Origin: Terriglobia bacterium
GTDB taxonomy: Bacteria; Acidobacteriota; Terriglobia; Terriglobales; Acidobacteriaceae
Length of the DNA: 32,949 nt
Assembly (NCBI GenBank): GCA_021324365.1
Contig: JAJPJE010000107.1
Span: 1-32,949 of the forward strand
Reading direction: 5' to 3'
Numbering within the stretch: position 1 is the stretch's first letter; every line of letters begins with the position of its first letter. The position numbers and the translations under genes are program-made. The notes under the pieces were generated by a model. It was not told the origin of the DNA, did not search any database, and was given only the letters and a program-made list of their open reading frames with translations. This document shows, one piece after another, positions 4,560 through 28,084 of this stretch.

Positions 4560-6032
4560 TCATTTGGGCTGTTCATTGTCGGGCAGCGGCATCATGATTC
4601 CGTTGTCAATCTTCCCCTGTTTTTGCTGTGGCACCGAAGACTGGTTCGGCGGATTTTGTTGCGGCGCATTCTGCTGAGGCGTGCTCTGTTGTCCCGGCTG
4701 TTGAGCGGCACCAGGCTGCTCGTTGTCGGGGAGCGGCATCATGATTCCGTTGTCAATCTTACCCTGCTTCTGTTGGGGAGCCGGTTGCGCGGAGGTGTTT
4801 GGCTGATCTGCTCCGGGTTGTTCGTTGTCCGGGAGCGGCAGGAGCAGCCCATTCTGACTCGGACCTTGTCTCACCGGCGGACGCGGAACAACATGTGCCT
4901 GGGGACGTGGGGTCAACTGCGGCGGCGGCGCTGCTGGCTCGATCACGGGAGTGTTATCGCGGTGACGAAGGACGACCGGGCCACCAAGCCTCTCGCGCGC
5001 CATGCGCTCGGCGTCAATGCGCTGCTGTAGCTGACCATCGAAATTGCTGGCTACTTCGCCGATTTTCTGTCCCTCGATATCCTTCCGAGTCGCCATGGTG
5101 ACATGCGCGCCATTACGATTCGCTTCGCGGGCCTTCTCGTAGTAATACTGCGCTGTCTCCTGGTCACCGTCGAGTTCCGAGAGGTACCCCATGTTATTGA
5201 GGGTGAAGGCGTCGTCGGGCGCGAGCTTATAAGCCTGGTTGAAATCTTCACGCGCAGTGCGTAGATCGTTGCGGTTCATGGCAGAGACGCCGCGGAGATT
5301 CAGGCGCGCGACGCGCATCTCCGGCGTCTCTTGTTTCTGCATCAGTTTTTGCAAAGCGCGTGCATTTCGAGAGGCGATTTCGCTAATTGGACGTCCACGC
5401 CATTCTTTGTTGATGGCCACCTGAACATTTTCCGTGGAGCCCAAACTTGCTGCCGCCGTGTAGTACTGCAGGGCAGACTCGTATTCGCCTTCCTGCTCAC
5501 GAGCGAAACCCAGATTGTTTAGAGTGAATGGATTCTTGGGATCGAGTTTCAGAGCCTTTTGCAGGACCAGATCCGCTTCTGACGCGCGATCCTTATTTAA
5601 GAGTGAAATAGCGTCGATGTTGTAGCGGTTGATCTGGACCTGCTGATCGTCGGTGTTGCCGGCCACCTGGTCGACCGGCTTGCCCTCCAGCCTCGCATTA
5701 TTGGATCGAGCGATGAGAGCGGAGGACCGCTGCTGCGCAGCGAGGTCATAGTAGCGCTGGGCGCGGTCGACCTGGCCATCGAGTTCTGCCATATATCCAA
5801 GGTTATTCAAGGTGAAGGGATCGTTCGGATCGAGCAGGTAGGCCTTATAAAAGAGCTTCTTCGCCTTGTCGTATTCGTGCTTCTCGACGGCTTTCACTCC
5901 ATCCTGATTCAGTTGTTGAACCGGCGTGGGCTTGGTTCGCTTCGGAATGCTAATGCGGAGATCACCGGCATACAAAAGAGAAGTGCCCAAAAGCAGAGCT
6001 CCAGTCAGCGAGAGGGAGCGAGAACTGAACAT
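4560..6032 (-). CDS. Secreted modular TPR protein with Pro/Gln-rich repeated tail
   Basis: From ATG 6032 the 490-residue product has a signal peptide (SLTGALLLGTSLLYAG) and three tandem modules of about 90 residues (roughly 41-130, 137-225, 244-333). Each holds a TPR pair centred on D-P-x-x-[PA]-F-T-L-N-N-[LM]-G-[YF] followed by E-x-[DE]-G, A-x-x-Y-Y and a closing G-[KR]-x-[IV]-x-[EQ]-[VI]-A-[SG]-N-like motif. After residue 360 comes a Pro/Gln-rich tail carrying PLPDNEQP three times (399-406, 433-440, 482-489), two within a longer KQGKIDNGIMM repeat. TPRs mediate protein-protein contacts; the partner is unknown. An open frame continues upstream to 6170, but GGAGGT 10 nt before ATG 6032 and the signal peptide fix the start here. 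Confidence 0.85.
   Translation of the reverse strand: MFSSRSLSLTGALLLGTSLLYAGDLRISIPKRTKPTPVQQLNQDGVKAVEKHEYDKAKKLFYKAYLLDPNDPFTLNNLGYMAELDGQVDRAQRYYDLAAQQRSSALIARSNNARLEGKPVDQVAGNTDDQQVQINRYNIDAISLLNKDRASEADLVLQKALKLDPKNPFTLNNLGFAREQEGEYESALQYYTAAASLGSTENVQVAINKEWRGRPISEIASRNARALQKLMQKQETPEMRVARLNLRGVSAMNRNDLRTAREDFNQAYKLAPDDAFTLNNMGYLSELDGDQETAQYYYEKAREANRNGAHVTMATRKDIEGQKIGEVASNFDGQLQQRIDAERMARERLGGPVVLRHRDNTPVIEPAAPPPQLTPRPQAHVVPRPPVRQGPSQNGLLLPLPDNEQPGADQPNTSAQPAPQQKQGKIDNGIMMPLPDNEQPGAAQQPGQQSTPQQNAPQQNPPNQSSVPQQKQGKIDNGIMMPLPDNEQPK
4571..4774. repeat. Direct DNA repeat encoding the PLPDNEQP tail motif
   Basis: About 57 bp at 4571-4627 recur with a few substitutions at 4718-4774, an offset of 147 bp. 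A shorter third relative lies near 4820-4850. They encode the repeated IDNGIMMPLPDNEQP peptide in the tail of the TPR protein. The near-identity at DNA level, including codon choice, points to recent duplication. Confidence 0.75.
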
Positions 6033-22920: not shown

Positions 22921-24021
22921 CTATGCGCGCCTGGGTTCACGTACGGCTTCGACCATGCGTGCCGGGAGGGGCTTCTCCTGCGGGCGCTTGTCCTCCACCT
23001 CCAGCGGCAGTCGCCAGTCTTTGGTTGACGCGCGACCCGCGGACATCCATGCGTAGCGTGTGAGCACGGATCCGGCGATGCCACAGCATGCGGCGAGTTT
23101 TCTCAGGCTGTCCGAGTTCTTCGAGAATACTGCTGCCAATCTCAGCAGCAAAGGCGTCGGGCCGGAGAGCACGCCTCCGGCCCGCGTGAGAAATCCGCTG
23201 CGGCCTCGCTTCAGTGGAGTGAGTACACGATTCGAATCGCTTTCAATATTGAAGCCTTCCCAGCTTTCGAAAGCAGACGCCAGAATGCCGAGCCAGTTTA
23301 GCGCTGCATTTTCGTTTCCCATTAACTCGAGCACCGACACGCCAGCCTGTAGACCCGACATGCCAAAGTGGACCGGAAGGGTCTTTACATTTTTATTCCA
23401 GACAGGAACGGCTGAGGCACCAATAAGAACGCCGGTGTAGTTGTGCAGGGGAAGCCCGAGGAGGGCTGCCATGCCCTGGCTGATTTCGCCGACGATGCGA
23501 ATGGGAAGCCAGTCATAGCGGCTGCGCAACAATTTCGCGAAGGTAGCGGCGCCGGCCGCGCTGCCGAATGCAGTGAGCGTCCACGCGCCAACACTCATCG
23601 GGCTCTGCAGCTTGAACACGCGCAGCATCCCAAGGAAGCGTTTCGGCCGTCCGAGATCGGAAATCAACAGGACCGACGAGAGAGCTGCGCCGCCGACCGC
23701 AATCCAGCGCGCATCTTGCGCGAGCTTGTCATCATCGGCAATCCAGTCGGCGAGAGCGGCGATAACAGCGGCCGCGCCGGCCGCGCCGCCCACCGCGAAG
23801 TAGAGTGGAATCTCCCATGTCCACGGGGGCTGCTTCAGCAGCGGTATACCGTAGTATCCCGTTTCCACGCTCGCCCGAGGAAAAGGAGCGCCTTCAGGGT
23901 GCACACCCACGTGCTCGACTCTGCCTTTGCGCTCGGCCTGGCTACGAAGTTCATGCAACCGCGCCTCACTGGTTGCGGTCGGTTGTCGTTGCTTTTGAGA
24001 TTCCGACGGCCAGGTACTCAT
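22921..24021 (-). CDS. nrfD: NrfD-type membrane subunit of formate dehydrogenase
   Basis: The 366-residue product has a polar N-terminal 65 residues, then PPWTWEIPLYFAVGGAAGA, the typical NrfD/PsrC entry, followed by SDLGRPKRFLGMLRVFK and SPMSVGAW, NrfD signatures, and about eight hydrophobic segments. NrfD proteins anchor ferredoxin-like subunits and pass electrons to or from membrane quinones. This replaces the cytochrome b subunit (FdnI) of the E. coli enzyme. Its start overlaps the stop of the ferredoxin-subunit gene by 4 nt (24018-24021), showing translational coupling. It is the last gene of the operon; the C terminus is polar and Arg/Glu-rich. Confidence 0.9.
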   Translation of the reverse strand: MSTWPSESQKQRQPTATSEARLHELRSQAERKGRVEHVGVHPEGAPFPRASVETGYYGIPLLKQPPWTWEIPLYFAVGGAAGAAAVIAALADWIADDDKLAQDARWIAVGGAALSSVLLISDLGRPKRFLGMLRVFKLQSPMSVGAWTLTAFGSAAGAATFAKLLRSRYDWLPIRIVGEISQGMAALLGLPLHNYTGVLIGASAVPVWNKNVKTLPVHFGMSGLQAGVSVLELMGNENAALNWLGILASAFESWEGFNIESDSNRVLTPLKRGRSGFLTRAGGVLSGPTPLLLRLAAVFSKNSDSLRKLAACCGIAGSVLTRYAWMSAGRASTKDWRLPLEVEDKRPQEKPLPARMVEAVREPRRA

Positions 24022-24899
24022 GCTCGACTCCTTCGAGCGCTCACTTTGCGCTGCGAACGGCTGCTATGGCGTGATCCGGTGAATGCTATCAGCGCGGCGA
24101 GAAGGAATGCTCCGGAACCGATAACCGCTGACCGCCATGCGTCTTTCTGGTAGACGATTGGGACCTCAGGTTTAGGCGGCAGGTTGTACATGCGCGGATC
24201 GCCTCGAACCAGGAAGAAGGCATGCAGACCTTTAACGCTCGTGTCCTTCGGGTCGTATATTTGCGCATCTTTCATGCCTTTGCCGTGCAAGTCTGAAAGT
24301 CGGCTTTGTGCGTGCTCACGAAGTTCTTCCAAGTTGCCGAACATGATCGACTTGGTCGGGCATGCCGTGGCGCAAGCAGGCTCCAGTCCAACTTTCTGGC
24401 GATCGGTGCAGAAGGTGCATTTGAAGGCGCGTCCGTCGTCCTCATTACGCTGAACGACTCCAAACGGGCAGTTCACGGTGCAGTATCCACAGCCATTGCA
24501 AACGTCAGGTTGAAGGAAGACGGAACCAAATTCAGTTCGCACAAGCGCACCCGTCGGACATGCCTCCAGGCAACCGGCGACCTCGCAATGTTTACAGACG
24601 TCCGACGAAAATTCCCACGACAGATGATTGCCAGAGTTACCACCATCCCCTGGCTTAATCTCGCCTTCAACGAATTTCACGTGGCGCCAAGTGGAGAAAC
24701 TCAAGCTGCCAGTATTGTCGTAGGAATAGCCGCTCAAGTTCAGCCCGTCTTCAGGAACATCGTTCCATTCCTTGCAAGCGACCTCACAAGCCTTGCAGCC
24801 GATGCAGAGGGTGGAATCGGTAAAGAATCCCGTGGTGTGCGACGAGTGAATGTCTGGATTCTCGGTGGGCGCGTTCATCGCGTGTATGAATGTGCTCAT
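24018..24899 (-). CDS. fdnH: Formate dehydrogenase iron-sulfur (beta) subunit
   Basis: FdnH-like electron-transfer subunit of 293 residues with sixteen cysteines in four groups: 32/35/38/42, 102/105/110/114, 134/137/140/144 and 161/164/176/180, enough for four [4Fe-4S] clusters. The first group is CIGCKACEVACKEW, the family signature. A C-terminal transmembrane helix (about 257-274) is followed by an Arg/Lys-rich tail, which by the positive-inside rule lies in the cytoplasm and would put the clusters outside, as in E. coli FdnH. The gene overlaps the catalytic-subunit gene by 4 nt at its start and the nrfD-type gene by 4 nt at its end. It carries electrons from the molybdenum/tungsten subunit to NrfD. 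Confidence 0.95.
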   Translation of the reverse strand: MSTFIHAMNAPTENPDIHSSHTTGFFTDSTLCIGCKACEVACKEWNDVPEDGLNLSGYSYDNTGSLSFSTWRHVKFVEGEIKPGDGGNSGNHLSWEFSSDVCKHCEVAGCLEACPTGALVRTEFGSVFLQPDVCNGCGYCTVNCPFGVVQRNEDDGRAFKCTFCTDRQKVGLEPACATACPTKSIMFGNLEELREHAQSRLSDLHGKGMKDAQIYDPKDTSVKGLHAFFLVRGDPRMYNLPPKPEVPIVYQKDAWRSAVIGSGAFLLAALIAFTGSRHSSRSQRKVSARRSRA

Positions 24900-27800
24900 G
24901 CCACCCTCTGGATTTCGCGTTGGAACTGTTCGAGTGCTCCGGCACCATCGGGGAAACGGTGGCCCCTGGTTAGATTGCAGACCAGAGCCTTGGTTTCCAT
25001 GATGCGAACATTGGGTTCTTCAGAAATCGCAAGCAGGTCGTTGGCTACATCGCCCTGAGCCATGCCTTTCCATCCCCAGTGATACGGAATGCCGACCGTG
25101 TGGATCTTGCGGCCACCAATCGTGACGGGGCGAACTCGTGAGGTAACCAGTGCATGTGCGGAGACGATCCCGCGCGGAGTCGTAATGGTGACCCACTCCC
25201 CATTGATGATGCCGAGCTCGCCGGCGAGTTCAGGCGAGATTTCGCAAAACAGTTCCGGCTGCAATTCGGCGAGATGCGGTAGGGTCCGGCTCATCCCTCC
25301 GGCCGTGTGATGTTCGGTCAGCCGATATGTCGAAAGGACATACGGGAAACGAGGATCGTTCGGTTGCTTGGCGTACGGGTTATCCGGACGTTGCTTGGTC
25401 TGCGCTGCCGGGTTGGTACCGTGATCCGGATATAGCGGATTGCTGATAATGGACTCGAGCGGCTCGTAGTGAGCTGGTAGAGGACCGTCTTTCAGGCCGC
25501 TGTTCACAAAAAGCCAGGCGACCCCATCGGAGTGCAGGATGAAAGGCGCATCTCCGGGCAAGGCATCGACCCCTTTTCCGTTGCGTAAGTCCCCCGGATG
25601 ATCGGGGGACTTCCGCAGGTCGAAATCCGGGCGATCCAGGCCCGTCCACGTCTTCTTCTGCTCGTCCCACCAGACTAGCTTCTTCTTCTCGCTCCATGGC
25701 TTTCCGTCGGGAGCGGCAGAAGCCCGGTTGTAGATGACGCGCGAGTCGTTGGGCCACGCGAATCCCCAGCCGTGGCCAAGATAGTCTTTCGGTTCGCGCT
25801 GATTTGCTTTGTTCAGAGTGGGCTCAGGATGGAAGCCTGCATAAATCCAGCAACCACACGCGGTAGAACCGTCGCTCTTTAATTCTTTGTACGACTTGAT
25901 CAGCTTGCGGTCAGTCCACGTGAAGCCATTGATCTCCCAGTCGATTTCATCGATTTTCGGTTCGGCAGTCGGGCCTTCAGTGGGATAGTTCCATTGCAAC
26001 GCGTTCATCGGCTCATTACGAGCCGAGCGGTTGCGAGCAGCCTTGTCTTTGAGCAGGCGTCCAAGATGATAGATGAACCAGGTATCGCTGCGTGCATCGC
26101 CCGGGGGATCGACAGCTTTGTTGTGGAATTGCAGCAGGCGCTGGGTGTTGGTGAACATGCCACTTTTCTCGGCCTGACCGGCCGCCGGCATGAGGAAGAC
26201 TTCGGTCGCAATGGACTTTGGATCCAGTTCACCTCGGCGAACTTCGGGAGAGTCGTACCAGAACGAAGCCGTTTCGGTTTCCACCATGTCGCGCACCACC
26301 AGCCACTTGAGCTTCGAGAGTGCGATGCGTTGCAGCCTGCCGTTGGGCGCGCCTACGACTGGGTTCTGGCCGATGACGAACAACCCGTCCATTTTGCCGT
26401 CTTCCATCTGGAGCCAGTAGCCGAGCTGAGAGTGATCGCCAGTTACACGTGGCAGCCAGTCGAAGCCCCAATCATTTTCTTTTTTCGCGTTATCGCCGTA
26501 GTACGCCCGCAGCAGACTGACAATGTAGCTTTCGTAGCTCGCCCAGATTCCAGTTTGCGCGGTATGTTTTTCGAGATACTTATCCCACGTGTAGGTGCCG
26601 ACGTCGAAGAAGGGCATCGGTAGATATCCCGGAAGAATGTCGTAGAGCGTGGGGATATCGGTCGACCCCTGAATGGAAGCGTGACCGCGCAAGGCGAGGA
26701 TACCGCCGCCCGGACGGCCAATGTTGCCGAGCAGCATCTGCAGGATTGCAGCAGAGCGGATGATCTGTGGACCTTTGGAGTGCTGCGTCCACCCGACCGC
26801 ATAACAGATGGCTGCGGTTTTCTCCGGCCCCGAAGCATTGGTGAAGGCCTCGGCGGCCTTCAAGAAGACATCTTGCGCTACGCCGCAGTATTCTTCCACC
26901 ATCTCCGGCGTGTAGCGGGCAAAGTGCCGCTTCAACACCTGGAACACGCAGCGTGGATCCTGCATGCTCTCGTCTTTGATGAAAATGTTGGATTTACTCG
27001 CCTCGCCGCCTCGTTGTCCGTGCCCACCTGCTGTCGGTGCGGTGCCAGTCGCGCCACGAGTTTCCTTTTCTGGCGACTCTTCGTAGAGCCAGGAAGTGGG
27101 ATCGTACTGACGCTTCTCCTCGTCCCAGCCGGAGAAGACCCCGCCGAGGTCTTCCGTATCTTTGAAATCCTGGCGGAGCAGAAACGTAGCGTTGGTGTAA
27201 TGGCGCACGTACTCGTCAAACCACCTGTTGTTCGTGAGCACATAGTTGATCAGCGCGCCAAGGAAGATGATGTCGCTACCCGGGCGGAGTGGCACCCAAA
27301 TATCTGCCATTGCCGAAGTGCGAGTGAATCGCGGGTCAACATGGATTAAAGTAGCGCCGCGCTCTCGGGCTTCCATCACCCACTGAAATCCAACGGGGTG
27401 GTTCTCCGCCATAGACGAGCCCATGATCAGGATGGCGTCTGCTCGTGCAAGATCAGTTTGTGCCGTCGTGGCGCCACCGCGACCGAACGAGGTGCCCAGA
27501 CCGGGCACCGTCGAGCTGTGTCATATACGGGCCTGGTTGCTGATACAACTCATTCCCAGGCCACCGGCGAAGAGCTTCTTGATCAGATAGTTTTCTTCAT
27601 TATCGAGAGTGGCGCCGCCAAGGTGAGCCATGGCCGCGGTGTGCATCACCGGTTCGCCCTTGTCGTTTTTCTCGACAAACGTGCGCTCGCGGGTGTCCCA
27701 CACTCGGTCGGCAATCATCTGCATGGCCGTGTCGAGATCGACTTCTTCCCACCGGGTTCCGTAGGGACGACGGTACTTTACTTTCTTCAAGCGACCTTCA

Positions 27801-28084
27801 TGAGTGTGGAGCTGATAAGTGGCCGAACCTTTGGGGCAGAGCCGTCCCCGCGAGATTGGCGATTCGGGATCGCCTTCGATCGAGACCAGCTTATTGTCTT
27901 TGTGGAAGATAAGCTGCCCGCACCCCACGCCGCAGTACGGGCAAATAGATCGAGCTACTTCTGCCCCGTGATTCTTGGGAACCAGGTGTCGCGTACGCTC
28001 GCTCCAGGACTCCGGCCCCGTTCCATCGGCACCAGTTTGTATCTGCTTGATAACAGGCCAGCGAGACAGCAGCTCTCGAATCAT
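24896..28084 (-). CDS. fdnG: Selenocysteine formate dehydrogenase catalytic (alpha) subunit, FdnG-like, UGA-encoded Sec188
   Basis: Formate is oxidised to CO2 at a Mo/W-bis-pyranopterin centre ligated by selenocysteine. The 1062-residue product is read through TGA 27521-27523 (codon 188), which lies in NQARI-Sec-HSSTV, matching FdnG's ARV-Sec-H context. The [4Fe-4S] ligands are Cys48, 51, 55 and 83 (CPYCGVGC...LCPKG). Downstream are FGRGGATT, the ENHPVGFQWVMEAR and DPRFTRTSAMAD motifs, GWTQHSKGPQ, GGGILALRGHASIQG, STACGCWIYAG and TYRLTEHHTAGG. Both halves share one frame. ATG 28084 has GGAG 5 nt upstream. There is no twin-arginine signal. An odd Gly/Ala-rich insert lies in the middle (about 27000-27070). 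The gene overlaps the beta-subunit gene by 4 nt. Confidence 0.93.
27491..27523 (-). promoter_or_regulatory. Bacterial SECIS element with its UGA selenocysteine codon
   Basis: Reading the - strand, UGA (27523-27521) is followed after exactly 11 nt by GGUGCCC (27509-27503), loop GGUCU (27502-27498) and GGGCACC (27497-27491), a perfect 7-bp stem. E. coli fdhF has the same 11-nt offset and a GGUC-type loop recognised by SelB. The E. coli elements also have a bulged U in the stem; here the equivalent U is paired. Confidence 0.88.

Follow-up and report, generated by a model that had tools for sequence, protein, structure and literature searches.

The window analysed here, a 32,949-nucleotide stretch of DNA from a Terriglobia bacterium of the Acidobacteriaceae (contig JAJPJE010000107.1, assembly GCA_021324365.1), carries an alpha-beta-NrfD-like gamma operon that we read, with very high confidence on the grounds of its sequence, as a molybdenum- or tungsten-dependent formate dehydrogenase (FDH) with selenocysteine (Sec) at residue 188 of its alpha subunit (Table 1). 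An initial annotation, made from the letters alone, had proposed that two open reading frames (ORFs) of 187 and 870 residues conceal one Sec-containing FDH. This reading is supported by purifying selection and by features directly visible in the sequence, namely the joined frame, an aligned Sec site, a hairpin kept among relatives and, in the genome, the genes for Sec decoding.

The two ORFs form a single minus-strand frame in which one TGA is the sole interruption, with coordinates and frame exactly as first described. The frame opens with an ATG at 28084, 5′ of which the in-frame stretch is 30 codons, and closes with a TGA terminator at 24896-24898, giving 1062 residues when the internal TGA, at residue 188, is translated as Sec. 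The joined protein matched NF041513 (formate_DH_Act) over its full length (residues 6-1052) with 1535.9 bits against a cut-off of 1400, and TIGR01553 with 951.9 bits (cut-off 814.2); the cut-off of TIGR01591 (666.25) was not reached (358.4 bits). Three molybdopterin domains, PF04879 (Fe4S4), PF00384 (oxidoreductase) and PF01568 (dinucleotide-binding), scored above cut-off. Among solved structures the best phmmer hit was E. coli FdnG (1KQF; E = 6.8e-224), with D. gigas 1H0H next, and in the alignment both show X (Sec), then His, opposite the TGA of the window. The proposal that the joined protein is an FDH alignable to FdnG thus holds, two NCBIfam cut-offs being passed and the Sec of 1KQF lying opposite the TGA. 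The site reads NQARV-Sec-HGPTV in 1KQF and HQARI-Sec-HSATV in 1H0H; the flanks in the window, NQARI and HSSTV, agree with the former at 4/5 positions before and 3/5 after, and with the latter at 4/5 and 4/5. The match to FdnG claimed for these flanks therefore stands at most positions, but they are not identical. The expectation that automatic annotation would split the gene was likewise right in part: a mechanical ORF list does give two ORFs, but NF041513 already accepts the joined protein. Gene-calling pipelines are described as error-prone for selenoproteins in excerpts of a 2026 review (PMC13188914).

Table 1. Features of the formate dehydrogenase operon, in coordinates of the window.
Feature	Coordinates	Strand	Basis
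fdhA/fdnG-like gene, formate dehydrogenase alpha subunit	24896..28084	-	translation with TGA=U, NF041513, TIGR01553, phmmer to 1KQF
In-frame UGA, predicted selenocysteine codon, residue 188	27521..27523	-	sequence, alignment with 1KQF and 1H0H, relatives
SECIS hairpin, 7-bp stem GGUGCCC/GGGCACC, loop GGUCU	27491..27509	-	sequence, fold, pair counts in relatives
RF01989 SECIS_3 match, full-length	27465..27526	-	42.1 bits, under gathering score 63
Formate dehydrogenase beta-type iron-sulfur subunit, 293 aa	24018..24899	-	Pfam Fer4_11 and others
NrfD-like membrane subunit, 366 aa, presumed quinone-reactive gamma	22921..24021	-	Pfam NrfD/NrfD_2 above cut-off

Downstream of the UGA (27523..27521), 11 nt (27520..27510) lead to GGUGCCC (27509..27503), the loop GGUCU (27502..27498) and GGGCACC (27497..27491), which is exactly the 7-bp hairpin first described. 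The bSECIS model, as excerpted from the same review (PMC13188914), has a stem-loop 16-37 nt from the UGA and a loop of 3-9 nt with a G in its first two positions; here the distance is 18 nt, and the 5-nt loop GGUCU starts with GG. The selenocysteine insertion sequence (SECIS) model SECIS_3 aligned from end to end (1-59/59) with E = 1.2e-8 in 241 bases, and because of this value and of the pairing retained across relatives we place the hairpin above chance. A core pattern derived from the relatives has one occurrence in the window at 0 mismatches, namely the Sec site; with 3 mismatches allowed the window has 2 occurrences, not significantly more than the 0.82 expected.

We examined 102 loci, 72 of them named and 30 (that of the window included) from 30 of 150 Acidobacteriaceae-family genomes. 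At identities of at least 50% there are 44 rows, the window included, with TGA at the site in 42, TAG in one and the Cys codon TGT in one. The named loci contribute 14 of these (12 TGA, 1 TAG, 1 TGT), and TGA stands in 30/30 of the family-genome loci. Below 50% identity (58 rows) the counts are 27 TGA, 17 TGC and 14 TGT. In the family genomes, among the matches listed and with the window included, TGA is present in 38/38 rows of at least 50% identity that cover residue 188, and one genome (G095) carries TAA besides TGA. At 51-54% identity, the actinobacterial rows all carry a stop here (TGA or TAG), with the exception of L030. Cys without the hairpin, named beforehand as the pattern that would contradict a Sec enzyme, is not the pattern of the close homologues, since 43/44 rows carry a stop and only L030 carries Cys.

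The six inner pairs of the hairpin are all standard in 43/43 stop-bearing rows (at least 50% identity), and the loop is GGUCU in 36 rows, AGUUU in 5 and AGUCU in 2. In the third inner pair, the third position of a Val codon faces that of a Gly codon; 43/43 rows have a standard pair here, drawn from six pair types, whereas the mean over 20000 shuffles was 23.6 and the maximum 35. Across 42 distinct rows 94.6% of cells are paired against 85.3% in shuffles, and the covariation score is 0.231 against 0.081, with 0/500 shuffles as high in either case, these shuffles taking no account of relatedness among the rows. Moreover, structures slid along the same 42 rows score far lower than the true register. 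The full set of six inner pairs in this register was found in 0/32 Cys rows, mostly distant relatives. L030, the sole close Cys row (52% identity), keeps 4/6 inner pairs and lacks the GGUCU loop, a decay to be expected where Sec has been replaced by Cys. We also observed that L028 (titled Geodermatophilaceae) has TAG (5559-5561), not TGA, as its Sec-site codon and retains this hairpin; a tRNA scan of the 13 kb piece with this locus found no CUA tRNA-Sec. UAG-Sec FDHs have been published for Geodermatophilaceae (PMC5330540, in excerpt), and L028 resembles them, whereas the window differs in its UGA and UCA-anticodon tRNA-Sec.

Against five of 43 possible relatives (L095, L096, L098, L107 and L119), dN/dS (the ratio of nonsynonymous to synonymous substitution rates) was 0.076-0.135 for the part preceding the TGA and 0.089-0.164 for the part following it, these ratios being rough as dS is saturated (1.5-2.9). 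By this comparison the frame 3′ of the TGA is clearly constrained much like the frame 5′ of it, as under purifying selection.

The genome assembly, with 125 contigs totalling 4444665 bases and a completeness of 95.39%, was searched for selA, selB, selC (tRNA-Sec) and selD, the genes whose absence the initial annotation would have taken as refutation, and all were found. SelA on C47 (551.4 bits), selB on C48 (379.5 bits) and selD on C7 (368.2 bits) lie above their family cut-offs, and the tRNA-Sec on C89 (66.1 bits) is called SeC by ARAGORN with anticodon tca (UCA). Co-occurrence across the family was typed from the matches listed in a 150-genome draw, from which weak or short rows may be absent. 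On this count SelA is above cut-off in 37/39 genomes with this enzyme, compared with 54/111 without it, and the two enzyme-bearing genomes with no SelA match (G073, G106) are 68 and 69% complete.

Two further candidates for Sec decoding were observed in the same genome. Close to its start, the selD gene (G000:C7:14120-15067, L018) likewise contains an in-frame TGA (context UASK), so that SelD, the selenophosphate synthetase, is probably itself a selenoprotein. A second FDH alpha gene at G000:C15:43923-46979 (L125, L131), 42% identical, has TGA in the context NQARV-stop-HGPTV and a SECIS_3 match of 59.7 bits; in our reading, an extra TAG counted at this locus falls outside the part translated up to the alpha stop. 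The N-terminus of this protein contains RREFLK, which we take to be twin-arginine-like, and cytochrome b561-type and FdhE-like genes lie downstream of its beta gene. The TGA of selD and the second Sec-type FDH suggest that the Sec machinery has several clients.

Other explanations of the interrupted frame have to be set against these data. Were the gene a pseudogene or the TGA a sequencing error, that is, a nonsense change of a Cys or other codon, two ORFs would appear in a mechanical list as they do here, and the homologue L030 does have Cys at the site. Such an accident is nevertheless extremely unlikely to explain a stop that recurs at the same aligned place in nearly every row of at least 50% identity, followed by a frame under purifying selection and by a conserved hairpin. 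We give scarcely any credence to a split-gene enzyme either, in which the 187- and 870-residue pieces would be separate polypeptides: a GTG shortly 3′ of the TGA does open the 870-residue ORF, but the break sits exactly at the metal-ligand residue, and a SECIS-type hairpin and a complete Sec machinery are present. That UGA here specifies some other amino acid than Sec, for instance Cys or Trp, is compatible with the sequence alone; it becomes highly improbable given the UCA-anticodon tRNA-Sec, SelA, SelB and SelD and the Sec found at this place in the homologous solved enzymes. The alpha gene itself also terminates in TGA, and this speaks against a genetic code with UGA as sense throughout. 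In our assessment, then, the internal TGA is almost certainly read as selenocysteine.

Several observations weigh against a Sec-containing FDH. At its Sec site the window has UHSS, as opposed to the UHxP listed for the FDH selenoprotein family in excerpts of the review cited above (PMC13188914). An Rfam scan of the window at gathering thresholds gave no match, the hairpin aligning with SECIS_3 in full yet at 42.1 bits against 63. By sequence, the hairpin is of SECIS type and not a formal member of RF01989. An E of 0.01 with SECIS_3 was reached by just 3/10 loci scanned, that of the window included, so the case for the hairpin rests on the pair counts instead. Its folding energy is not unusual (z = -0.36, with 55/200 shuffles folding equally well), and we rejected this measure as uninformative. 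In the relatives the seventh, outermost pair is present in just 27/43 stop-bearing rows, and 2/5 pairing measures are no higher than in shuffles (both-side changes 2 vs 2.0, further pair types 7 vs 6.5). To these come the limits given above for the shuffles and the dN/dS ratios. A second locus in the genome exceeds the tRNA-Sec cut-off at 48.2 bits and is a tRNA-Ser by ARAGORN, so that this cut-off alone is not decisive. Finally, the maturation protein FdhD was not found in the genome by TIGR00129 or PF02634, at the completeness stated above; all three E. coli FDHs need FdhD, according to excerpts of PMC6239281.

The distribution of FdhD bears on the last point. It was found in 24/150 genomes of the family draw, in 4/29 family genomes with this enzyme and, among the matches listed, in 5/39 genomes with this enzyme, none being detected in 34/39. 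On the same basis there is no association with FDH of either type (11/66 genomes with, 13/84 without), and a single-contig genome (G032) has both FDH types, carrying two Sec-type FDH genes, with no FdhD detected. In the genomes reached through the named loci FdhD is present in 19/20, the miss being L033, titled Acidobacteriaceae. The FdhD-positive genomes include five whose titles (L022, L023, L024, L026 and L032) we take, for some of them from general knowledge, to be acidobacterial. FdhD matches were either strong or none, which suggests that FdhD is truly lacking, although a very divergent FdhD may have escaped detection. In a search for a stand-in beside the operon in the loci of 8 relatives, only alpha, beta and gamma recurred widely, and an aminotransferase was found in 3/8. 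FdhE was found by PF04216 in 0/15 genomes; its central and C-terminal domains are present in the protein beside the C15 FDH, so PF04216 alone misses FdhE here. That the Sec-type FDHs of this family mature by an FdhD-independent route is a tentative and rather doubtful suggestion from these distributions.

Turning to the partners of the alpha subunit, the start of the beta gene overlaps the alpha stop (ATGA). The beta protein scores 197.9 bits with TIGR01582 (FDH-beta), under the cut-off of 334.7, and hydropathy gives it a single hydrophobic stretch near the C-terminus (257-275), while a simple hydropathy scan of gamma gives only one strong hydrophobic stretch. An NrfD-like homologue adjoins alpha in 7/8 relatives' loci and, by ORF picking, a beta gene is present in 7/8. 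At the N-terminus of alpha, translation and hydropathy revealed neither a hydrophobic stretch nor a recognisable twin-arginine translocation (Tat)-like signal; the active site is therefore likely to be cytoplasmic.

From the sequence we infer Sec insertion, the metal, the enzyme activity, its direction and the electron acceptor. SelA would make Sec-tRNA-Sec using selenophosphate from SelD, and SelB carrying Sec-tRNA-Sec would bind the hairpin past the UGA, so that Sec would be inserted and termination avoided. The Sec residue would ligate the metal and aid the oxidation of formate to CO2, the electrons passing from the beta subunit to the membrane subunit and on to quinone. The likeliest reading is thus of a membrane-bound complex in which formate would be oxidised on the cytoplasmic side and quinone reduced.

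The alpha subunit matches NF041513 in full, and whereas the name of this family includes the actinobacterial kind, the window is acidobacterial by its closest named relatives (Acidobacteria, 72% by alpha protein). Enterobacterial relatives are about 39-40% identical to the alpha protein. With FdnG (1KQF) it aligns over 41-335 and 369-1039, Sec followed by His being shared; unlike FdnG, the window alpha has an extra unaligned stretch at about 336-368 and no Tat-type signal. FdnI is a cytochrome b, whereas the gamma subunit of the window is NrfD-like. Also within the alpha gene, in a stretch unaligned with FdnG, lies a perfect palindrome (25587-25612; a AAGTCCCCCGATCATCCGGGGGACTT-type hairpin), which we rejected as a genome repeat as it has one copy within 3 mismatches. 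Elsewhere in the window, a 725-residue ORF at 8136-10313 matches aconitase/isopropylmalate dehydratase models, those of the large subunit at 265-715 and of the small subunit at about 104-221, the small part preceding the large part in one chain.

In summary, the kind of enzyme, the bacterial group and the mechanism are already known. Excerpts of a 2006 survey credit Acidobacteria with 4 selenoproteins in 3 families, and count 103 FdhA selenoproteins overall (PMC1794560); 3 known selenoprotein genes are given for Occallatibacter riparius, a member of the Acidobacteriaceae, in excerpts of a 2025 paper (PMC12013277), and the excerpted part of PMC8808070 held nothing specific to this enzyme. Alone, the finding leaves the picture of selenocysteine decoding unchanged. 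What it does show is that a mechanical gene list misses the entire catalytic subunit at this locus. It also contributes one well-supported selenoprotein, accompanied in the same genome by another Sec-type FDH and a probable Sec-type SelD, to a group in which selenoproteins have been reported since 2006. Moreover, the absence of FdhD, if real, would raise the question of how active-site sulfuration takes place in the FDHs of Acidobacteriaceae.

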